This document shows positions 262 to 43,572 of a stretch of DNA of 64,000 bases, piece by piece. A model generated the notes under the pieces. It did no database searches. It worked only from the letters and a program-made list of their open reading frames with translations, and was not told the DNA's origin. The translations under genes were made by a program, and so were the position numbers. Each line of letters starts with the position of its first letter. Within the stretch, counting starts at the first letter, position 1. Source of the DNA: Gammaproteobacteria bacterium (GTDB lineage: Bacteria; Pseudomonadota; Gammaproteobacteria; GCA-001735895); the NCBI GenBank assembly GCA_024225395.1, contig JAAEMR010000192.1, positions 1 to 64,000 of the forward strand, written 5' to 3'.

Positions 262-3012
262 CTACTGTGCTGCACTTTGCCTGAGTTCTTCAACATCTAA
301 TCGACCACGTTTTATTGGTATGGTTAAAACTTTACCTGCTCTCTTTATTTTTAGATCAACAATACTACCAGCAGGACCTTTAATATGCCGGACGACTTCT
401 CTATCACTCAATCCATTTAAAGAATTACCGTTTGCAGAAATCAAAATATCTCCTACTTTCACACCTGCAACTTTCGCTGGCATTTTATTTCCCAGGCCGC
501 TTATAAAATGCTGTTTTGATTCATGATCAAGTTTAATAGCAATACCTATACCATGCATTTTTGCTAACTTTTTACTTACAATTTTTCCCTTCTTATAGAT
601 GAGTTCAATTACTCGGAGGTCTGTAGTCGTTACAATTGATTGACCATCAATAACTCCTTTAACCCAGTTTGCCACTTGCTTATCTCCATTCTTATTTGTC
701 AAAACTCCAGGCCCTTGCCGATAGGAAGATTTATATCCCCCTTCATATATTGAGCCATCGGCGAAGCTCCGGAACATTCCTTTTCCTTCGATTTGAGCCG
801 ATTTGAAACTCCCGATATACATATCACCATTTGAAAACGTATAAATTCCAGTACCATTAGGTTGGCCGTTCTTCCAGTCCCCATCATAGCTATCTCCATT
901 TTCATAAACATGCACGAACCTTTTGTTTTTTGACCGGTTCTTTATCTTTGGATATCTAAGTTCCGGATAGTCTTCAAAGCCTGGCTGTAGATTATTATTG
1001 GTTTGTTTCGCTAAAGACTTTGCAGTTGCTATCGATTTTTCATAAGCCTTCATCATTGAATCACGTCTTAAAGCCGGTGCCCTGGCTAATGCTTTGGTGG
1101 GCAACAGTGCTTTACCTGCATACTTTGCAGCTGAATTACAAGTTGAAGTAGACAATGAAAGCCGACAAGAGCGGAAAAACCATACAAATTTTTCATAACT
1201 ATCTTCCTTTTTTCCAGCAACTCTATTCATTGCATCGGCTTTTACATTTTTTATTTTGGATTGTGGAATAGCTGAATGAATAAAGTCTCCTAATCCGCCC
1301 AACAGATAAGTTTCTTCGAGCGCATATTTACAATTTAAAAGTCTTCTACGTGCTTGTTTGTCCGTTTCATTGGGTGATGTTTTCAGGCATTTGATTAAGT
1401 ATTTTCTTTCGCTCGAATATTTATCAATCAAATATTTATAAGTATCAGAGTCATTTTTATTGCAAAAATCGCCTTCTGGCCATTTCTCACAGCCGATACT
1501 TCGCCAAAATTTTCTTTCCGTAGTGGTTGGCGCATACCTCGCTCTTGAATAGGCGACTTTTGAATAAATGAAATGCTGAGTTCCAATGTTCGTATAAGTA
1601 AGTACTTGATCAGAAAGGGTATAGAAAAATTTGGCCGACAGGTTTTTTTTCAGCGCCTTATCCAATGCTTGTTCGCAAACCTTTGAATCTTTACTGTTAC
1701 TATCACCATTACTCATGCTAGCAACACAATGCATCTGTTCTATATCATCAGAGAGTGCAACTAAATCCTCCATTATTGGACAAAAACCCTGTGCTTTACT
1801 GTTTTGATTTTTCTTGTAAAGATTACAAAGTTCTACAATAACGATTGGGTGCTTAGTTCTTTTTACCGCCCGAGCACAAACATTTTCTCTGAACGCTTTA
1901 TTTCGATCAACACAATTTTTAATGAGGGCGTAGGAAGCTTTTTTTATGGCTTCCTGATTTTTTACAGTATCAAAAATATTTGAGCAATGCTGGCGTCTAA
2001 TTTTTGGAAAAATCATTGAAGAAGCGCCACTACAATATTCTATATCGAGTGAAAGAGCTGAAATACAGGCAGGGTGTTTTGCGCGAGATTCAGTTTTAAC
2101 TAAGTCGCAAGCTTGCTTAAACATAAATAATGCTTCTCTCGACTCATCACCTCCATAACTTTTCGCTAATTTTCCAGCGGCTTGGCAGCTATTAATCTCT
2201 GGTTTTGATTTACATTCGTCAACAGCAATTATTTTTTTGATCCGTAATTTTCGTTTTTCACTTGAAAACGATTGTCCAAACTTTAATTCTAAATTTTTGG
2301 TTGCCTGGCAATGAACTGAAGAACGATAGCAAGCGTATTGCATAGCAAGAATTGCTGACTCTGCTGAAGCAGCAGGTTCAAAAAGTCTAATTTTAGTTGT
2401 GATTGTAGGTACGATTAAGCAAGATTTTGTGTCACCCGAAATGCATTTAGCAAGACTTTTCTTTTCAGAATTCTGAATTGTGAAATTACTACAGCTTTGT
2501 TTAATATCAACCCAGGTTTTTTCACTTCCATAGTTCTTTTTAAGTTCGCCACAAAAAGGAGCATCGCTGTTTATACTGCACTCATCTTTTATTTGTCCTA
2601 TCGTCTGTTGACATACACATGAGTAAGAAATTCCTTTTTCACAGCTTCTTGTAATATTTTTAAATTTTTTTTCTAGTTTATGAGCTTTGGTAATTGCTTC
2701 TTGTTGTCTTTTTTTCTCTTCAGCTCGTCTACGGTTTTCTCGCAACCTTCGCTCGGTTTCCTCTCGATTTTGTTTAACTGATCTAGCATATTCTGCTTTT
2801 TGCTCCCATTCATCAATAAAAGCCCTGGCCTTTTGTCTGGCTGACGGCAAACTACTTTCTAGTTTCCCATGAATTGTTCGATTGTTCTTGTTCCGTTCAA
2901 TCGCGTCTCGCTGTTCACGTGCAACACGTTCTGCATTCGTTTCTGCGGCAATTAGGTTGCAAGAAAAACAAATTAATAAGCATGCTAAAACAGTTTTAAG
3001 TGGTAATGTCAT
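262..3012 (-). CDS. Secreted Cys-rich MORN-repeat and PDZ-domain protein
   Basis: The protein is about 916 residues if translation starts at the ATG at 3012. That start opens a clear Sec signal peptide (hydrophobic LKTVLACLLICF core, cleavage near LIAA/ET); the reading frame is open 38 codons further up, but those would precede the signal. After it come a charged coiled-coil segment (roughly residues 20-120, rich in E, R, K and Q), a long region with many Cys pairs of the SCxxGxxxSC kind, a block of about four MORN repeats (YDGDWKNGQPNGTG and relatives, near residues 735-830), and a C-terminal PDZ domain (GIGIAIKL, then AKVAGVKVGDILISANG). MORN repeats usually bind lipids or proteins and PDZ domains bind peptide C-termini, so a periplasmic scaffold is plausible. 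No catalytic motif was seen. The function is unknown and no operon partner is visible. Confidence 0.75.
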   Translation of the reverse strand: MTLPLKTVLACLLICFSCNLIAAETNAERVAREQRDAIERNKNNRTIHGKLESSLPSARQKARAFIDEWEQKAEYARSVKQNREETERRLRENRRRAEEKKRQQEAITKAHKLEKKFKNITRSCEKGISYSCVCQQTIGQIKDECSINSDAPFCGELKKNYGSEKTWVDIKQSCSNFTIQNSEKKSLAKCISGDTKSCLIVPTITTKIRLFEPAASAESAILAMQYACYRSSVHCQATKNLELKFGQSFSSEKRKLRIKKIIAVDECKSKPEINSCQAAGKLAKSYGGDESREALFMFKQACDLVKTESRAKHPACISALSLDIEYCSGASSMIFPKIRRQHCSNIFDTVKNQEAIKKASYALIKNCVDRNKAFRENVCARAVKRTKHPIVIVELCNLYKKNQNSKAQGFCPIMEDLVALSDDIEQMHCVASMSNGDSNSKDSKVCEQALDKALKKNLSAKFFYTLSDQVLTYTNIGTQHFIYSKVAYSRARYAPTTTERKFWRSIGCEKWPEGDFCNKNDSDTYKYLIDKYSSERKYLIKCLKTSPNETDKQARRRLLNCKYALEETYLLGGLGDFIHSAIPQSKIKNVKADAMNRVAGKKEDSYEKFVWFFRSCRLSLSTSTCNSAAKYAGKALLPTKALARAPALRRDSMMKAYEKSIATAKSLAKQTNNNLQPGFEDYPELRYPKIKNRSKNKRFVHVYENGDSYDGDWKNGQPNGTGIYTFSNGDMYIGSFKSAQIEGKGMFRSFADGSIYEGGYKSSYRQGPGVLTNKNGDKQVANWVKGVIDGQSIVTTTDLRVIELIYKKGKIVSKKLAKMHGIGIAIKLDHESKQHFISGLGNKMPAKVAGVKVGDILISANGNSLNGLSDREVVRHIKGPAGSIVDLKIKRAGKVLTIPIKRGRLDVEELRQSAAQ

Positions 3013-3158
3013 AATGTTGCTCAAGCATATATATAAAGCGCATATAGGACATGCATTTAAACAAATTGAAACTATGCCGTCACCTGTCTGTTGATGAACG
3101 GTCAAACAAAAAAGTTCTGGAGACACAATATTTATCTCTTTTTAACTTTTGGCTCAGG

Positions 3159-3365
3159 CTATTTCTTCTTTAATTCTCTATTCAGTAATTTCTCTGCTAT
3201 CTCTATAAACTTATCCTCCCCAAATGGTCGGCCTGTCTTTTCATGATGTTCAAACTCTGTATTCGAATGACTCATCTCTTCTTTTAAATAATCTTTCCAG
3301 TTTCCACCTGCCAGATCCAGCATGTCCTTGGTTTTAATGATGCCATCCGCGTCAGAAAAGTTAAC
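3159..3365 (-). pseudogene. Remnant of a REP-associated tyrosine transposase (Y1/IS200-like)
   Basis: On the minus strand, 68 codons are open before a TAG at 3159-3161. They contain GGNWKDYL, then HHEKTGRPFGEDKFIEIAEK and a Lys-rich end (LNRELKKK). The series W-x-x-Y/F-L, TGRP-x-G, F-I, and a basic tail is the standard C-terminus of RAYT-type Y1 transposases. Nothing matching the catalytic HUH and Tyr part exists upstream on that strand: the frame runs into a ten-base C tract and then unrelated sequence. This is a dead 3' fragment of a gene that would normally be about 200-320 codons. Confidence 0.7.
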
Positions 3366-3577
3366 CCCCCCCCCAACTTAAAGCCTGGATTTTGCGAGTA
3401 TTGAAAAAAATTCCACTCAAGTTATCCACATAAGCAGACATCCCTGATTAAAGTTACGAGTCTTTTTATAGTGCATAAAATGGATTAGGCACTCTAAACA
3501 CTCCCTTATTGATGATGTGTGTATAAATCATGGTCGTTTCCAGAGTTACACAAATTTGAAGAAGTCTAATTTGAACT

Positions 3578-3879: not shown

Positions 3880-4665
3880 ATGGCTTTATCGTATCGACAA
3901 CAGCGGATTATCAGAAAACTCCACGAAACAAATGGCGTACTTTCCAGTGCGGAAATTACGGCACTATTCAATGTCTCTGTACAAACTATCAGAAAAGACC
4001 TCAATGAATTGAGTGAACAAGGCTTCGTGCGCCGGGTGCATGGTGGTATTAGTCTACCGAGCAATAATCATAATCTGTCGTTTAGTAATCGTACGGTCAT
4101 GAATCTCGCGGAAAAACATAACATTGCGCGCAAGGTGGTCGAATTACTACCCAAAAATAGCAGTATCTTCCTGGGTATCGGTACCACGCCTCAACAGGTC
4201 GCACATGCCTTACTGGATCACCCTGGGTTAACCGTCGTGACCAACAATATCAACGTCTCATTGACACTTAGTAACAACCCTGAAATTCAAACTTATCTGG
4301 CCGGGGGGCTGGTACGATCCAGTGATCAGGACACAATGGGGCCGGACACAATAGCATTTTTTAATCAATTCAATATTCAATACGGCGTATTTGGCGTCGG
4401 AGGGTTGAACCAGAAAGGACAGCTACTCGACTTCTCTCCTGAAGAATCAAGTGTGTCTCGTGCGATTATGCAAAACAGCGAGACACGCATACTAGTCGCT
4501 GACCATAGCAAGATCGATCGCTATGCACCTGTGGTTACTGGAACTCTGGACGATATCGATATTCTGGTAATGGATTTCATCTCGGAAACAATAAAGCAAT
4601 CCTGTGTGACGTTCGAAACTGAAACAATTGAAGCGGGATCTACCTCGGAATTTTTATCATGTTAA
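3880..4665 (+). CDS. glpR: DeoR-family transcriptional repressor, GlpR-like
   Basis: The protein is about 261 residues with the two-part DeoR build. An N-terminal winged helix-turn-helix (RQQRIIRKL, then LFNVSVQTIRKDLNEL and VRRVHGG, roughly residues 5-55) is followed by a sugar-phosphate-sensing DeoRC domain (FLGIGTTPQQVAHAL, VTNNINVSLTL, YLAGG, FGVGGL). ATG at 3880 is the conventional start; an in-frame TTG at 3862 is preceded by GAGAG and cannot be excluded. The stop overlaps the start of the ABC ATPase gene (ATGTTAA). With a GlpD-like gene at the far end of the cluster, glycerol 3-phosphate is the most likely inducer. The family and class are clear; the ligand is inferred from context. 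Confidence 0.85.
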   Translation: MALSYRQQRIIRKLHETNGVLSSAEITALFNVSVQTIRKDLNELSEQGFVRRVHGGISLPSNNHNLSFSNRTVMNLAEKHNIARKVVELLPKNSSIFLGIGTTPQQVAHALLDHPGLTVVTNNINVSLTLSNNPEIQTYLAGGLVRSSDQDTMGPDTIAFFNQFNIQYGVFGVGGLNQKGQLLDFSPEESSVSRAIMQNSETRILVADHSKIDRYAPVVTGTLDDIDILVMDFISETIKQSCVTFETETIEAGSTSEFLSC

Positions 4666-5624
4666 AAGTTGAAGAAATATCGCGCAAATATGGCGAGTTA
4701 ACGGTTGTAGACAAGCTTAGTTTTAGCGTAAACCAGGGTGAGTTTGTCGCTTTGCTGGGCCCTTCTGGTTGCGGGAAATCGACTTCCCTTAAAATGATCG
4801 CGGGCCTGGAAACGCCTGATGCAGGGTCAATCGAGCTGGAAGGCAGGAATATAACCCGTCTCTCACCCGGTGAGCGCAAACTGGCGATGGTATTTCAATC
4901 TTATGCGCTCTTCCCTCATTTGAAAGTAGAAGATAATATTCTGTTTGGTCTGCAGGCAAGGAAAGTGCCAAAAGGGGAGCAAAAAAAGCGTCTGGACTCA
5001 GTCGTCGATCTGGTTGGGTTGGGTGATCATCTGCAAAAAAAGCCAGGACAACTTTCCGGCGGTCAGTGCCAACGAGTCGCTTTAGCGAGAGCAATTGTTG
5101 CAGAAGCGAAGCTATGCCTGATGGATGAGCCCCTGTCTAACCTTGATGCCAAACTGCGCAACGAAATGCGAACCGAAATCAGGGCGTTACAACAGCGCCT
5201 GGGTATGTCGGTCATATATGTCACCCACGATCAGGTCGAAGCAATGAGTATGGCCGACCGAATTGTGTTGATGAATAACGGAAAAGTCGAGCAGATTGAC
5301 GTGCCCGAAGCGCTTTACAACAATCCGAAAACAATTTTTACAGCTCAGTTCATCGGCAGTCCACCGATGAATATTATTAAGTCCGGGAGTGAAAACCTGG
5401 GTATCCGGCCTGAACATATCGAGATTTCAGAACAGGGTATGCCGGCCACTATTTTGAGCTGTGACTACCACGGCGCCGATACAATCGTGCTCGCCGATAT
5501 TAGTGGACAGGGAGAAGATCAAAAGCTGGTCAAAATACGCTATCCAGGGCATGCCCTGTTTGCATCTGATCAGAATATATCAATTAGCTGGGCACCCCAA
5601 AACGAACACAGATTTCCACTCTGA
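4659..5624 (+). CDS. ugpC: ABC transporter ATPase, UgpC/MalK type
   Basis: This 321-residue cytoplasmic ATPase would power the importer encoded downstream. Visible motifs are Walker A GPSGCGKST (34-42), a Q-loop (VFQ near 78-80), the signature LSGGQCQRVALARA (from 132), Walker B LCLMDEP (152-158) and the H-loop YVTHDQVEAMS. A short C-terminal TOBE-like part contains LGIRPEHIEI. It is about 35-50 residues shorter than typical UgpC/MalK, with the shortening in the regulatory tail. Its start overlaps the stop of the DeoR-type gene, which points to translational coupling and one operon. Confidence 0.88.
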   Translation: MLKVEEISRKYGELTVVDKLSFSVNQGEFVALLGPSGCGKSTSLKMIAGLETPDAGSIELEGRNITRLSPGERKLAMVFQSYALFPHLKVEDNILFGLQARKVPKGEQKKRLDSVVDLVGLGDHLQKKPGQLSGGQCQRVALARAIVAEAKLCLMDEPLSNLDAKLRNEMRTEIRALQQRLGMSVIYVTHDQVEAMSMADRIVLMNNGKVEQIDVPEALYNNPKTIFTAQFIGSPPMNIIKSGSENLGIRPEHIEISEQGMPATILSCDYHGADTIVLADISGQGEDQKLVKIRYPGHALFASDQNISISWAPQNEHRFPL

Positions 5625-15175: not shown

Positions 15176-15997
15176 CTACTCCTTTCTACCCATGATTTCC
15201 TCTTCCATTTCCCAGATCATGGCGAGGATTTCATCTCGTTTTTGACAAAACTCAGGGGTTTTCCTGACTACGCGCAAGTCTGCGTCTACACCCATATCTG
15301 CAAAAGGTAATTGGTACTCCTTATGGATTCTGCCAGGTCGAGGAGCCAGAACCAGCAGTCTTTCGCCAAGTAGCAGGGCTTCTTCGACCGAGTGAGTAAT
15401 CAGAATGACGGTTTTACCGGTTTCTTTCCACAGTTCGAGTACGAGCCCCTGCATTTTTTCCCGGGTCAGGGCGTCGAGAGCACCCAGCGGTTCATCCATC
15501 AGGATGACATCCGGGTCATTGGCCAGGCAACGAGCCAGGGCGACACGTTGTTGCATGCCCCCGGATAGCTCGTAAACGGCTTTTTCACCGAAGTCCTGCA
15601 GACCAACGGTTTCCAACAGGTGATCGACACGTTCGTTAATCTGGTGACGGGGTGTATTCTTCATCGCCGGCCCAAAGCCGATATTCTTGCGTACAGACAT
15701 CCATTCAAACAGGGCGCCTCTCTGGAATACCATGCCGCGTTCCGGTCCGGGTTCGGTGACGTGTTCGCCGTTGAGTACTACGCTTCCTTCAGTCGGAGCG
15801 AGAAAACCGGCAATAATGTTCAGTAGTGTCGTTTTACCACAGCCTGATGGGCCGAGCACCGACATGATTTCACCTTCTTTAATTTCAATGGATACATTTT
15901 TCAGGGCTTCAACCGTCTGCCCATCAGGCAGGTCGAAGTTCATGGAAATATTATCGATGAGCAGGCTGGAAGGTTGTGAAGCCAGGTGTATTGTCAT
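15176..15997 (-). CDS. tauB: Taurine ABC transporter ATPase
   Basis: This 273-residue cytoplasmic ATPase has Walker A GPSGCGKTT (49-57), the signature LSGGMQQRVALARCL, Walker B VILMDEPLGALD and the H-loop LITHSVEEALLL. The SsuB/TauB subfamily is indicated by MVFQRGALFEWMSVRKNIGF. It sits between tauA and tauC on the minus strand. Family membership is certain; the taurine substrate follows from the neighbouring tpa and xsc genes. Confidence 0.92.
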   Translation of the reverse strand: MTIHLASQPSSLLIDNISMNFDLPDGQTVEALKNVSIEIKEGEIMSVLGPSGCGKTTLLNIIAGFLAPTEGSVVLNGEHVTEPGPERGMVFQRGALFEWMSVRKNIGFGPAMKNTPRHQINERVDHLLETVGLQDFGEKAVYELSGGMQQRVALARCLANDPDVILMDEPLGALDALTREKMQGLVLELWKETGKTVILITHSVEEALLLGERLLVLAPRPGRIHKEYQLPFADMGVDADLRVVRKTPEFCQKRDEILAMIWEMEEEIMGRKE

Positions 15998-32333: not shown

Positions 32334-32371
32334 CATGATAGGGGAGAATGGGCATGATAGGGGAGAATGGG
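32334..32371. repeat. Perfect 19-bp tandem duplication carrying the ribosome-binding site
   Basis: CATGATAGGGGAGAATGGG occurs twice back to back (32334-32352 and 32353-32371). Each copy contains AGGGGAG, so the ribosome-binding site of the dctQM gene is doubled. Confidence 0.9.
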
Positions 32372-32372
32372 T

Positions 32373-34847
32373 ATGGCTGAAGATGAGGAGAATCCAGAAG
32401 ATCTCGAGATTGCGGACGAACTGATTGCGGAGCGTCGTGCGCAGGCCCCTGGTGAAACGCCAGAGGATATGACATCCTGGCAACGCCCGATAACCGCAGC
32501 CATTGACGTCATTAATTACCGGGTGGGCCAGATTATTGCCCTGCTCATGGTGCCGCTTATTGTTGTAGTGGTGCTAGAAGTCATTTCACGAAACTCGTTT
32601 GCGATCTTGCAGGATGCCGGGTTCGAAGATCTCGCCAGAACCCTTGGGCTTGGCCCCACACTCTGGGTGTATGACACCAGTCGTATGATAGCCGGGGTGC
32701 TCTTCATGGCGGCCGCGGGCTATGGTCTGATGCGCGGGGTTCATATCCGCGCCGACTTCCTCTACCGGAATTGGTCGGCAAAAACACAAGCGACAGTGGA
32801 TGCAACACTGTACCTCCTGTTCTTTATGCCTTCGATGATCTTCTTTACCGTTATCGCCTCGGAGTTCTGGTGGCTCGCCTTTTCAAGAGGTGAAACCATG
32901 CAGATCGACAGTGCCTGGGGACCAGTTTTGTGGCCCGCGCGCCTGGCGATGCCAGTCGGTGCCTTCCTCTTGATGCTGCAAGGTCTCCCTGAGATTTTCC
33001 GCGCATTTCACAAGATGGGTAAACAGCGAGAGCGCTGGTTCGTACGGGCCTTGCCTGTCTATATAATCGCACTGACCTGGCTCGTTCTGTCAGTGTTCCA
33101 ACCGAGTATGGTCCCCGGTGGAGAAGCGTTTTCCGAACTCATGTCCGCCCGACCGAACATGGATAAAGCTACCATCGGATTGATCATGCTGGGAGCCATG
33201 CTGTTCGTGATCTTTATCGGTTTTCCAATTGCATTCACGTTGGTCTTCCTTGCCTTTATCTTCGGCATTTGGGGCGCCAACTTCAAGTTGACCACACTGT
33301 TGATGACGCTGAACACAAACTCCACCATGTTGAACGATCAGCTGATGGCGGTCCCGCTCTTTGTGCTGATGGGGATAGTCATGGAAGCGGCGGGTTTGAT
33401 GGACCGGCTGTTTTCGTCGGTCCAGATGATCATGTCGCGCGTCCGCGGCGCGTTGTTTATCGCCGTGCTGATCGTATCCACGATTTTTGCAGCAGCTACT
33501 GGCATTGTAGGCGCTTCTGTGACCCTGCTTGGGATCATGGCTGGCGCGACCATGACCAAATCCGGCTATGACGTCAAGCTTGCGGCCGGAACTATCACCG
33601 CAGGTGGCACATTGGGCATTCTTATACCGCCCTCAATTATGCTGATCGTTATGGGACCTGTTCTGGAAGTTTCAACCCTTGATCTCTTTCGTGGGGCTTT
33701 TATTCCCGGCGCTCTGCTGGCTACCCTTTACCTGCTCTACACGCTTGGACGCTGCTGGCTGAATCCCGACCTGGGGCCAATTTTGTCAGAAGAGGATCAA
33801 CCTCAAACATCCGCATTTTATGGTGCTGAGGTTGCGCTGATCTGCCTGGGCGTTTTGACCGTTTGCCGAGTCTTTGGCCTTGCCCTGGGTGGTACTTTTG
33901 GCGGTGTGATTCCATTTGGCGGCTTGATCGTTTTGGCCATTACCTGTGCCGTAGCCTATGCCGCATACCGTCATTTGAATCTACTCAAGATCGTTGTTCC
34001 GATCACGGTGATCTTCCACCTTTATATGATTGTTGCGAATATGGGCGAGGACGGTAGTCTGCCGGTCTGGTCGATGACTTTCGCTGCATTCACCGTGCTT
34101 CTGGCGTATCTGGGACGGACGATTTATAGCGCTTCAGCTGACAGGGAATTCTACTTCTCGGATCTCTGGGATGAATTTTTTGCGGGGCTCATGCCGCCCA
34201 CGATCCTGATTTCTTTTGCTTTAGGGTCGATTCTTCTTGGCCTGGCAACACCTGCTGAAGCCGCCGCTATGGGCGCCTTTGGTGCCATATTGTTATGTGT
34301 CGGTTACGGCAAGTTCAACATTGCTAGTTTCTTTGACAGTCTGATTAAAGCCCTGGAGATCACGGTTTTGATTATGTTCCTGGTTGCAGCATCTAACTTC
34401 TTTGGCGCCGAATTCAGTGCCCTGGGCACGCCAAAGATGATGACTGAGTTGCTACTTGGCCTCGATATGTCACCTTACTTGATACTGTTATTGGTCATGG
34501 CATTGATATTCCTGCTCGGATGGCCACTGGAGTGGGTACCCATCGTTCTGATCGTTGTGCCAATTTTGCTGCCGACGGTTGTGGCGTTGGATGTCCACGG
34601 ACTGGATCGCTACGACCTGATGGTCTGGTTTGGCATTCTGGTCGCGGTGAACCTGCAGACCGCATGGCTATCCCCACCTGTGGCTTTGTCAGCCTACTTT
34701 CTGAAGGGGGTCGTGCCGGAATGGGATCTCAAGGACATCTATCTGGGCATGATGCAGTTTATGGTGATTCAACTCATCGGTCTCATCCTGCTGTTTGTGT
34801 TCCCGCAACTGGTGCTTTGGCTACCCAAAGTCATGTCTGGTGGATAA
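32373..34847 (+). CDS. dctQM: TRAP transporter, fused small (DctQ) and large (DctM) membrane subunits
   Basis: The protein is about 824 residues. After an acidic cytoplasmic head, the first 230 residues form four helices of DctQ type (IIALLMVPLIVVVVLEVISR). The DctM part follows, with FIGFPIAFTLVFLAFIFG, AATGIVGASVTLLGIMAGAT, GGTLGILIPPSIMLIVMG and the second-half repeat FALGSILLGLATPAEAAAMG. A roughly 100-residue helical insert separates the DctM halves. ATG 32373 is chosen because the second AGGGGAG lies seven bases upstream; ATG 32367 is too close to it. It imports the DctP ligand with Na+ or H+. Confidence 0.9.
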   Translation: MAEDEENPEDLEIADELIAERRAQAPGETPEDMTSWQRPITAAIDVINYRVGQIIALLMVPLIVVVVLEVISRNSFAILQDAGFEDLARTLGLGPTLWVYDTSRMIAGVLFMAAAGYGLMRGVHIRADFLYRNWSAKTQATVDATLYLLFFMPSMIFFTVIASEFWWLAFSRGETMQIDSAWGPVLWPARLAMPVGAFLLMLQGLPEIFRAFHKMGKQRERWFVRALPVYIIALTWLVLSVFQPSMVPGGEAFSELMSARPNMDKATIGLIMLGAMLFVIFIGFPIAFTLVFLAFIFGIWGANFKLTTLLMTLNTNSTMLNDQLMAVPLFVLMGIVMEAAGLMDRLFSSVQMIMSRVRGALFIAVLIVSTIFAAATGIVGASVTLLGIMAGATMTKSGYDVKLAAGTITAGGTLGILIPPSIMLIVMGPVLEVSTLDLFRGAFIPGALLATLYLLYTLGRCWLNPDLGPILSEEDQPQTSAFYGAEVALICLGVLTVCRVFGLALGGTFGGVIPFGGLIVLAITCAVAYAAYRHLNLLKIVVPITVIFHLYMIVANMGEDGSLPVWSMTFAAFTVLLAYLGRTIYSASADREFYFSDLWDEFFAGLMPPTILISFALGSILLGLATPAEAAAMGAFGAILLCVGYGKFNIASFFDSLIKALEITVLIMFLVAASNFFGAEFSALGTPKMMTELLLGLDMSPYLILLLVMALIFLLGWPLEWVPIVLIVVPILLPTVVALDVHGLDRYDLMVWFGILVAVNLQTAWLSPPVALSAYFLKGVVPEWDLKDIYLGMMQFMVIQLIGLILLFVFPQLVLWLPKVMSGG

Positions 34848-40784: not shown

Positions 40785-42269
40785 ATGAGTTCACTTTCTC
40801 CTGTTCGGTTACTCACGTTACTGGTTGTAGCGGTATTACTGCTATTACTGTTAATGGTGGGCGTGTTACTGACGGATACCTTGCTGAATATCCGCGAGAA
40901 CCTGGAGCAGGCACCCTCCTGGGTATTTTATCTGGTGTTATCGGCTTTTGGGCTGTTTTCACTGCTTTCCGGCTGGCTCATCATGCGCCTGCTACGTCCT
41001 AAAAAAATATCTGCAGCTAAACTTCCTGTTTCTCATCCCGTCGATGAGCAAAGTTTGCACGAAAAATTGCAGCACAGTAAGTCCACTGGTATTGATACTA
41101 CTGAAGCCGAAGCGGAACTGGAAAAACTCAGGCAAAGACGTCAGGCAGGCACTATTCATATTGCCCTGTTTGGTGAAATTAGCAGTGGAAAGTCCAGCCT
41201 TATAAAGTCGCTGTTACCCGAATCAGACATTGAGATTTCAGTGACCGGTGGCACCACACAAAAATTAACGGAATTTTGCTGGACGAGTCCGGCGGGTGAT
41301 CAGTTGATTTTAACCGATATGCCCGGCTTGAATGAAATCGGTGGCGAGAAAAAAATATTATCGCAGCAGGAGGCTTTACGCTCGCATCTGGTTATCTATG
41401 TTTGTGATGGAGATCTGACACACAGCCAGCTTGAAGAGTTAAAAAAACTAAGCGAACTACGAAAACCAATAATCCTGGTGTTAAATAAAACGGATAGATT
41501 GAGTCCGCAGGAATTGGAACTGTTAAAAAATCAGTTAGAAAATAGAGCCAGAGAGCTGGGGAATAGTGAACTGGTCAGCATAACTTCCGGTGGGGAACAG
41601 CAGGCGATTCGTATCAATGCGGATGGAAGTGAAGAAGCTTTTCTAAGGCCTTTTCCTGCTCAACTGGATGACTTGAAATTAGCTATTCAGAGAACCATCG
41701 ATAACAACAGTAAAACCCTGGAACAACTCAGGGATAGCGCGGTGTTTACGCTTATTTTTTCTCAGCTAGATGCAGCACAGTCACTTCAACGAGACCAGCA
41801 GGCACTGGAACTGACTCGCTCCTATTCAAAAAAAGCTGTAGTGGCCGCAATTGCGGCTATTACACCGGGTACCGATATTTTAATTCAGGGATACCTGGCG
41901 ACCCAGATGGTGAAAGAATTATCAGAACTGTATCAGGTTCCGGTACGCAAAATGGATGTTGATTTACTGCTAAAATTAGTCCAGCAGCACGTTAGAACAC
42001 ATATTACCCTGCTGCTTGCCGTTGCGGGCAATGCGCTCAAGGCCTTTCCCGGGGCAGGTACTTTAGCCGGTGGGGTTTTGCATGCCATAGCCTATGGGTT
42101 TTTATTTGAAACGCTGGGCAAGAGCCTGGCTAAGTCATTACAGAGTCGGGGTGAGTTACACCCTTTACAGGTCGCCGGTCAATTCGAGGATAATCTGGGT
42201 GAAAATATTAAAGCGTCTGCAGGGTTTTATACCCGGATGGCGCTCAAAGAATTCAGCAACAAAAGCTGA
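40785..42269 (+). CDS. Membrane-anchored GTPase with DUF697-like C-terminal domain (first of pair)
   Basis: The protein is 494 residues. Two N-terminal helices (about residues 8-30 and 46-66) anchor it. A GTPase domain follows: G1 GEISSGKSSL (near 131), G3 TDMPGLNEIGG, G4 LVLNKTDR. The last 150 residues are hydrophobic helices (VVAAIAAITPGTDILIQGYL, then LLLAVAGNALKAFPGAG) resembling DUF697, found in YcjF/Era-like proteins. The 3' end overlaps the second GTPase gene, so the two are translationally coupled. It could act in membrane remodelling or envelope assembly; the function is unknown. Confidence 0.8.
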   Translation: MSSLSPVRLLTLLVVAVLLLLLLMVGVLLTDTLLNIRENLEQAPSWVFYLVLSAFGLFSLLSGWLIMRLLRPKKISAAKLPVSHPVDEQSLHEKLQHSKSTGIDTTEAEAELEKLRQRRQAGTIHIALFGEISSGKSSLIKSLLPESDIEISVTGGTTQKLTEFCWTSPAGDQLILTDMPGLNEIGGEKKILSQQEALRSHLVIYVCDGDLTHSQLEELKKLSELRKPIILVLNKTDRLSPQELELLKNQLENRARELGNSELVSITSGGEQQAIRINADGSEEAFLRPFPAQLDDLKLAIQRTIDNNSKTLEQLRDSAVFTLIFSQLDAAQSLQRDQQALELTRSYSKKAVVAAIAAITPGTDILIQGYLATQMVKELSELYQVPVRKMDVDLLLKLVQQHVRTHITLLLAVAGNALKAFPGAGTLAGGVLHAIAYGFLFETLGKSLAKSLQSRGELHPLQVAGQFEDNLGENIKASAGFYTRMALKEFSNKS

Positions 42270-43572
42270 CGATAAACCTGCGTTGAACGCTGATGAGGGC
42301 CAGCTAAATCTGGATCTGGCATTAGAAAGTTTGCAGGATTTACTGAATGACAAACGTGTGCCAGAGCAGGTTCGTCAGTCATTGGCAGTGGATTATGCTG
42401 AGGTTGAAGAAATGTTGGCTCGTATGCAACAGGGGCAATTGCATATTGCTGTATTTGGCCGGGTCAGTGTTGGAAAATCTGCATTACTAAATGCCTTGCT
42501 GGGAGAGAAAAAATTTTCCACAAGCCCGCTTCACGGTGAAACCAAAACGACTCAACAGGGACAGTGGCAGGAGTATGAATCCGGCAATATCTTTCTGATC
42601 GATACGCCGGGCATCAATGAAATTGATGGTGAAAAACGTGAGCAGCTGGCGAAAGATGTAGCTGTACGGGCAGAGCTGGTTTTGTTTGTGGTTGATGGTG
42701 ACCTGACTGATACCGAGGTTCAGGCATTGAAAACTATCTCGGCACAGCATCGCCCGATCATCCTGGTGCTGAATAAAATAGACCGTTATCAAACTCATGA
42801 AAAAGAAGCGTTATTTAACTCGCTTGAGTTGCACAGTTCCGGTCTGGTCGATAAACGTAATATTGTTGGTGCCGCAGCTGATCCGGCTGAGCAGTTCATA
42901 ATCCAGCTTGATGAAGCGGGTAATGAAACTGAAAGCAGTAGAAAACCAGCTGCCGATGTTGTGCAGGTGCGGACACGATTATGGGAAATCCTACAAACTG
43001 AAGGAAAAACATTATCGGCACTTAATGCCTCGTTATTTGCCGGGCAGTTAAGTGACCAGGTAGGGCAGAGAATGATACAGGCCCGGTCTGAAATCGGGCA
43101 GAAAATCATTCACAGCTACTGTGCAGCAAAAGGGGTGGCCGTTGCATTCAATCCTGTACCCGTTGCCGACCTGGTAGCCGCTGCGGTGGTAGATGTGTCG
43201 ATGGTAGTGCATCTATCAAAAATATTTGGTTTGCCTTTATCCAAAAGCGAGGCGGGTAGTCTGATTAAAACGATTGGAGCACAGATGATTTTATTGATGG
43301 GAACGGTGTGGGCAGTACACTTTGTTTCTTCTGCTCTCAAACTGGGAACCACGGGATTATCGGCCATGGCAACCGGTGGTGCTCAGGCAGCTGTGGCTTA
43401 TTACAGTACTTATATCGTTGGCCAGGCCACAGAGCAATATCTGGCGCAGGGCAAGTCCTGGGGTGAGGGCGGTCCTAAATACGTGGTTAGAGAAATACTC
43501 GATAATCTGGATAGAGATTCCATTATGGAACAGGCAAAACTGGATATTAAGAGCCGATTGAGTAAAGCCTGA
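42199..43572 (+). CDS. GTPase with DUF697-like C-terminal domain (second of pair)
   Basis: The protein is about 457 residues from GTG 42199, which has GAGGA about eight bases upstream; the frame is also open from ATG 42094, and TTG 42283 is another option. G1 GRVSVGKSALLNALLG, G3 IDTPGINEIDGEKR and G4 LVLNKIDRY are intact. The C-terminal region has several hydrophobic helices (VAVAFNPVPVADLVAAAVVD, then MILLMGTVWAVHFVSSALKL). It is clearly a paralogue of the preceding GTPase but lacks the two N-terminal anchors. The 71-base overlap with its neighbour implies fixed stoichiometry, perhaps a heterodimer. Confidence 0.8.
   Translation: MKILKRLQGFIPGWRSKNSATKADDKPALNADEGQLNLDLALESLQDLLNDKRVPEQVRQSLAVDYAEVEEMLARMQQGQLHIAVFGRVSVGKSALLNALLGEKKFSTSPLHGETKTTQQGQWQEYESGNIFLIDTPGINEIDGEKREQLAKDVAVRAELVLFVVDGDLTDTEVQALKTISAQHRPIILVLNKIDRYQTHEKEALFNSLELHSSGLVDKRNIVGAAADPAEQFIIQLDEAGNETESSRKPAADVVQVRTRLWEILQTEGKTLSALNASLFAGQLSDQVGQRMIQARSEIGQKIIHSYCAAKGVAVAFNPVPVADLVAAAVVDVSMVVHLSKIFGLPLSKSEAGSLIKTIGAQMILLMGTVWAVHFVSSALKLGTTGLSAMATGGAQAAVAYYSTYIVGQATEQYLAQGKSWGEGGPKYVVREILDNLDRDSIMEQAKLDIKSRLSKA

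Follow-up and report, generated by a model that had tools for sequence, protein, structure and literature searches.

The open reading frame at positions 262-3012 on the minus strand of a gammaproteobacterial contig encodes a protein that is probably an exported, non-enzymatic scaffold of the cell envelope, apparently lineage-specific and either acquired or fast-evolving. From its N-terminus it carries a Sec-type signal peptide and a basic coiled-coil-like stretch, then a middle rich in Cys, followed by a short array of MORN repeats and, at the C-terminus, a PDZ domain. The scaffold reading follows from the kinds of parts recognised, from a PDZ domain that stands without an S41 domain, and from the absence of a long frame downstream, as the 261 bases between the 3' end of the gene and the contig end hold only short frames by eye. 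The window analysed comprises bases 1-64,000 of the contig, one of 265 that make up a 4.45 Mb draft genome (estimated 98.85% complete, with 4.72% contamination).

The gene, with its limits set by the open frame and codon statistics, runs in one open frame from an ATG at 3012 to a stop codon at 264-262 and gives a product of 916 amino acids. An alternative in-frame GTG at 3126 would give 954 amino acids, adding a Cys-rich leader of 38 residues. Residue numbers refer throughout to this 954-residue translation (P0001), in which the ATG is M39. The five other frames contain 33-102 stops, the best codon score of the six belongs to the gene's own frame, and the GC contents at codon positions 1, 2 and 3 (0.44, 0.40, and 0.275) are of the coding type; 3012-262 is a genuine coding frame. 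The coordinates and the order of parts in the preliminary description were correct, and the strand is minus. Among the 41 window ORFs that were scored, this gene has the lowest GC (0.373) and GC3 (0.275).

The Sec-type signal peptide (2944-3012, minus strand; residues 39-61) was delimited by hydropathy, with its type assigned by eye, and cleavage probably falls near AA-ET, again judged by eye. The Kyte-Doolittle profile peaks at 2.30 at residue 45, and all 17-residue windows beyond residue 62 stay at or below 1.07. The secretion signal proposed earlier is thus supported, as a signal-like N-terminus, by sequence and hydropathy. It is followed by a basic coiled-coil-like stretch defined by composition (2647-2943, minus strand; residues 62-160), which is charged (pI 10.4), lacks Cys, and overlaps a long helix (residues 94-163) in a low-confidence AlphaFold2 model. 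Its two weak NCBIfam matches, ATP synthase B' (E 0.073) and ClpV1 (E 0.47), are what is expected of a coiled coil.

The mature chain as a whole is strongly basic (net +60, pI 9.57), which favours reading it as a surface or extracellular binder whose chain would stick to an anionic polymer (LPS, peptidoglycan or DNA) or to another cell. The MORN1 protein of T. brucei, which interacts with individual phospholipids and not with membranes or vesicles (PMC7725318), points in the same direction. However, part of the Lys richness is expected of any gene this rich in AT (GC3 0.275), the Pfam matches include neither an anchor nor an outer-membrane domain, and no lipobox is visible by eye. A binder of this kind seems unlikely.

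The orphan Cys-rich middle (913-2646, minus strand; residues 161-738), probably an alpha-helical solenoid, contains 28 Cys within 578 residues, while the coil, the MORN array, and the PDZ domain contain none. SCxxGxxxSC, formerly described as a repeated word of this region, occurs exactly only once, at residue 161, and the shorter CxxGxxxSC twice, at 162 and 228; with one near-match, it is hardly a repeated word. Neighbouring Cys are spaced 7-9 residues apart in seven pairs versus 2.8 in shuffled sequences (P = 0.015, for a range picked post hoc); taken singly, a spacing of 8 shows no enrichment (P = 0.37) and a spacing of 9 gives P = 0.033. In a Pfam scan of the middle at E <= 10, with HMMER filters that drop most weak matches, SLATT_6 alone was matched; it is sub-threshold (E 0.12 and 0.089; about 12 bits versus a cut-off of 27.1) and is taken as chance. 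PDB sequences gave no match to the middle at E <= 10, and PHROGs none.

The structure prediction called for in the preliminary description yielded helical hairpins at low confidence. AlphaFold2, run on the single sequence without relatives, returned a mean pLDDT of 39.4 for the whole protein and 55.3 for residues 240-500, with residues 300-359 (block means of 68-85) modelled as two helical hairpins in which C305/C314 and C340/C354 are predicted near helix ends. Foldseek found no match to the modelled middle at E <= 0.001. The VIA structural comparison returned helical-repeat proteins with Z of 6.5-8.2 among the matches listed, a level common for helical repeats; LpnE (Z 7.6, rmsd 2.2, 71 aligned) and HcpB (Z 6.5, rmsd 4.5, 81 aligned) are weak matches at that same common level. 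The low-confidence hairpins, together with these weak structural matches, make it likely that the middle is a helical solenoid.

A more specific form, a disulfide-stapled, Sel1/TPR-like solenoid, is plausible from the Cys near the predicted hairpin ends. It is favoured by the confinement of all 28 Cys to the middle, by the excess of 7-9 spacings, by the position of Cys near helix ends, and by a DsbA-like protein, encoded in the same genome, whose N-terminus is signal-like and which contains CPHC. Against it stand the low confidence of the fold, the lack of Foldseek matches at the threshold given above, and the DsbB and VKOR models, which had no match in the 98.85% complete assembly. At the level of sequence, the earlier Sel1-like reading is not supported: the Sel1 profile PF08238 lists 13 repeats in the genome and none in this gene, Pfam with HMMER filters on finds no Sel1 in the gene at E <= 10, no TPR family appears in the Pfam scans of the protein (filters on), and a profile built from six hand-picked Cys units recovered no Hcp protein. 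The predicted hairpins and the weak HcpB/Sel1/TPR similarity keep it as a structural possibility. The protein resembles Helicobacter HcpB/HcpC in being secreted and Cys-rich, with Cys near the predicted hairpin ends. In Hcp proteins, disulfides tie each repeat at its end to the beginning of the repeat that follows (PMC3851747). In contrast to the Hcp family, it has no Sel1 sequence match and an irregular unit length, and it is fused to MORN and PDZ, with which no Hcp protein was found.

The MORN array (646-912, minus strand; residues 739-827) was identified by Pfam and phmmer. Its repeat register, set by eye after PMC7725318, comprises a half repeat YDGDW, a GTG repeat (758-780), a GKG repeat (781-804), and a degenerate GPG repeat (805-827). 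Pfam MORN matches in two stretches (E 2.8e-8; 33.6 bits versus a cut-off of 22.5), with 36.2 bits at a single MORN place, and phmmer against the solved MORN1 aligns residues 740-825 at E 3.6e-24. Of two PHROGs matches, one falls here (E 4.5e-9) and the other, which is weak, on the PDZ domain. The repeats resemble those of MORN1 in their length of 23-24 residues and their GxG beginning, whereas, unlike MORN repeat proteins, this protein carries about three repeats only, set inside an exported multidomain chain. MORN repeats are described as protein-protein modules able to dimerise (PMC7725318).

The PDZ domain and the end of the protein (265-564, minus strand; residues 855-954) are of the S41/CTP type by score. 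Pfam PF00595 covers residues 855-927 (E 2.2e-9; 38 bits versus a cut-off of 23.2), and a GIG is visible by eye at 859-861. The best NCBIfam match is TIGR00225, the S41 carboxyl-terminal processing family (46.6 bits, family cut-off 218.6), followed by lower scores for Do/HtrA (21.8 bits) and RseP (21.0 bits); outside the coil, every NCBIfam match is to the PDZ part of a protease or of a PDZ protein. CtpB aligns with residues 836-948 in phmmer. By score and alignment, the domain is therefore like that of the S41 proteases CtpB/Prc, but the protein differs from them in having no catalytic domain and in scoring far below the family cut-off. The S41 catalytic domain is absent from the Pfam matches, and no enzyme domain was recognised in the whole protein by Pfam or NCBIfam, in agreement with the preliminary description. 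In CTPs, the PDZ domain binds peptides from substrate C-termini (PMC8764530).

This PDZ type favours a second alternative, by analogy with LbcA-CtpA or NlpI-Prc, in which the protein would serve a PDZ protease of the periplasm as adaptor, or act as its decoy; the solenoid would wrap the substrate, and the PDZ domain would engage its C-terminus and hand it to, or withhold it from, an S41 protease. Three S41 matches, in three frames, are present in the genome, and the third match listed in the VIA comparison was to a chain of 532 residues from the CtpA-LbcA complex that is presumably LbcA itself (Z 8.0, rmsd 4.2, 126 aligned), although a Z of 8 is common among helical repeats. The delivery of substrates to S41 proteases by LbcA and NlpI has been described: LbcA forms a spiral of 11 TPRs that might enclose the substrate and bring it to CtpA, while NlpI hands MepS to Prc (PMC8764530). 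The present protein would share with them an exported helical-repeat chain that probably works with a PDZ domain. However, LbcA and NlpI are TPR proteins for which the relevant parts of that source mention no PDZ of their own (PMC8764530), whereas here no TPR is recognised by sequence, the chain has its own PDZ and MORN, and no lipobox is seen by eye. Furthermore, the PDZ is only 28% (54 residues), 32% (66 residues), and 29% (31 residues) identical to the host S41 proteins, which also leaves a copy taken from a host S41 protease unsupported, and no protease gene was recognised adjoining the gene in the part of the window that was scanned. A role as adaptor or decoy of this type is rated improbable.

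A variant in which one chain does all of this is still less probable, being very unlikely. It would unite the stapled solenoid, MORN as a dimerisation module, and the CTP-type PDZ in an adaptor for envelope proteolysis, whose solenoid would wrap substrates while its PDZ pre-selects C-termini for S41 proteases or competes with them. No adaptor of such a solenoid-MORN-PDZ build appeared in the searches made.

Relatives of the middle were not found beyond its own genome, either among 369 genomes of the class, drawn from a larger group, or among 41 of the family (1/41). A pattern scan of genome contigs with the middle, which reaches close relatives only, matched seven stretches, none of which was confirmed, and plasmids and viral contigs gave none. 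The whole-protein search matched 29 of 57 genomes (own included) and none of the seven others of the genus; apart from the own locus, all matches listed lie within residues 734-949, that is, MORN plus PDZ. MORN at E <= 0.001 was likewise confined to one of the 41 family genomes, the own one.

The MORN-PDZ part has matches in 242 of 398 genomes of the phylum, and among the phylum matches listed only the own locus contains both domains in one match, the MORN matches ending at or before residue 134 of 218. Thirty loci from this phylum search were fetched. Fetched loci contain 34 MORN ORFs, including three pieces of the query locus; none of the 31 others matches the PDZ query at E <= 1, and a Pfam scan found PDZ in none of eight MORN proteins. 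A match on a Pandoraea plasmid that covers 81% of the query proved to be MORN only. In viral contigs, 16 stretches fitted the pattern of this part and none was confirmed, and pieces of MORN or PDZ occur in four phage records. PADLOC found none, and a phage or defence gene was set aside. Titles and abstract openings in the literature, mostly outside subscription journals, showed no bacterial, exported or PDZ-bearing MORN protein of the same build. The architecture search suggested in the preliminary description thus found no second protein with both MORN and PDZ among the matches listed, and a known family with the full-length architecture and a described function was not encountered in the genomes, plasmids, and viral and phage records searched. 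The combination, which had been called unusual, was found nowhere else in the sequences, titles and abstract openings searched.

Just upstream of the gene, and outside the protein, lies the C-terminal remnant of a transposase (3162-3365, minus strand), adjoined by a run of ten C at 3365-3374. The remnant is 47.5% identical over 61 amino acids to a stretch in the family genome G011, adjoining an ORF with HHITQRGNRRQ, and we take it to belong to a REP-associated (RAYT-like) transposase family. The neighbours are presumably a DeoR-type regulator and a glycerol-3-phosphate (ugp-type) ABC operon, together with a glycerophosphate-oxidase-like gene and acetate kinase. G011 has a related transposase piece next to this operon, but in the opposite relative orientation. 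The operon ATPase was found at E <= 1e-100 in three of 20 genomes (own plus two of the family), and in these two family genomes the gene is absent beside the operon, in the stretches read, and genome-wide, as judged by the middle. The gene is accessory, acquired or fast-evolving, since the middle and MORN occur in the own genome only (1/41), its GC is the lowest among the window ORFs scored, and it is absent at two related loci.

The LpoA encoded on the contig has its nearest relatives in MAGs of uncultured gammaproteobacteria, with 85% identity to the closest, SI039_bin4; we assume that the SI039 label denotes a marine inlet. The 33 LpoA relatives comprise 29 Gammaproteobacteria MAGs, one Pseudomonadota MAG, and three distant sequences (30-34%) from Endonucleobacter, an Oceanospirillales strain, and Endozoicomonas. 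Elsewhere in the window, TRAP transporter DctQ and DctM are fused in one 826-amino-acid protein (32367-34847, plus strand). Two long open frames on the plus strand (40785-42269 and 42094-43572) overlap by 176 bases, which may reflect a frameshift or a misplaced start, and two ABC ATPase-like stretches (4659-5624 and 15377-15895) are 43% identical over 176 residues.

The contig end, the ten-C run, and the 4.72% contamination leave a small chance of chimerism. The contig end and the ten-C run, with the transposase remnant upstream, the low GC, and the failure to find an orthologue, also favour a decaying or chimeric gene without present function, assembled from gene pieces joined in a mobile region at the contig end. 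Such an origin is nevertheless highly doubtful, as a single frame stays open for 916 codons and its GC at the three codon positions is of the coding type, the Cys are even in number and all in one part, and the signal peptide is in frame with the rest. An effector injected into a host is not favoured because the signal is of the Sec type.

The scaffold reading, which we prefer, can be put as a sequence of steps. The protein would be exported by Sec to the periplasm, where its 28 Cys would be oxidised, and a rigid alpha-solenoid may result as the disulfides staple its helical hairpins. A beta platform formed by the MORN hairpins may serve self-association or the binding of a partner, and the PDZ domain may hold an envelope protein by its C-terminal peptide. 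If the solenoid and the PDZ domain each hold a partner, two partners are brought together; the one bound to the solenoid would come to lie next to the one bound to the PDZ domain, joined through MORN.

Each recognised domain of this protein is of a known kind, the mix of parts is unusual and the protein appears to stand alone; its proposed function is inferred from these parts. What draws attention is the presence of MORN, a protease-type PDZ domain, and a large orphan Cys-rich part in one exported bacterial protein. If it is a scaffold or a protease adaptor, it would illustrate how uncultured bacteria recombine modules of envelope quality control; otherwise, it would be one more lineage-specific secreted protein.
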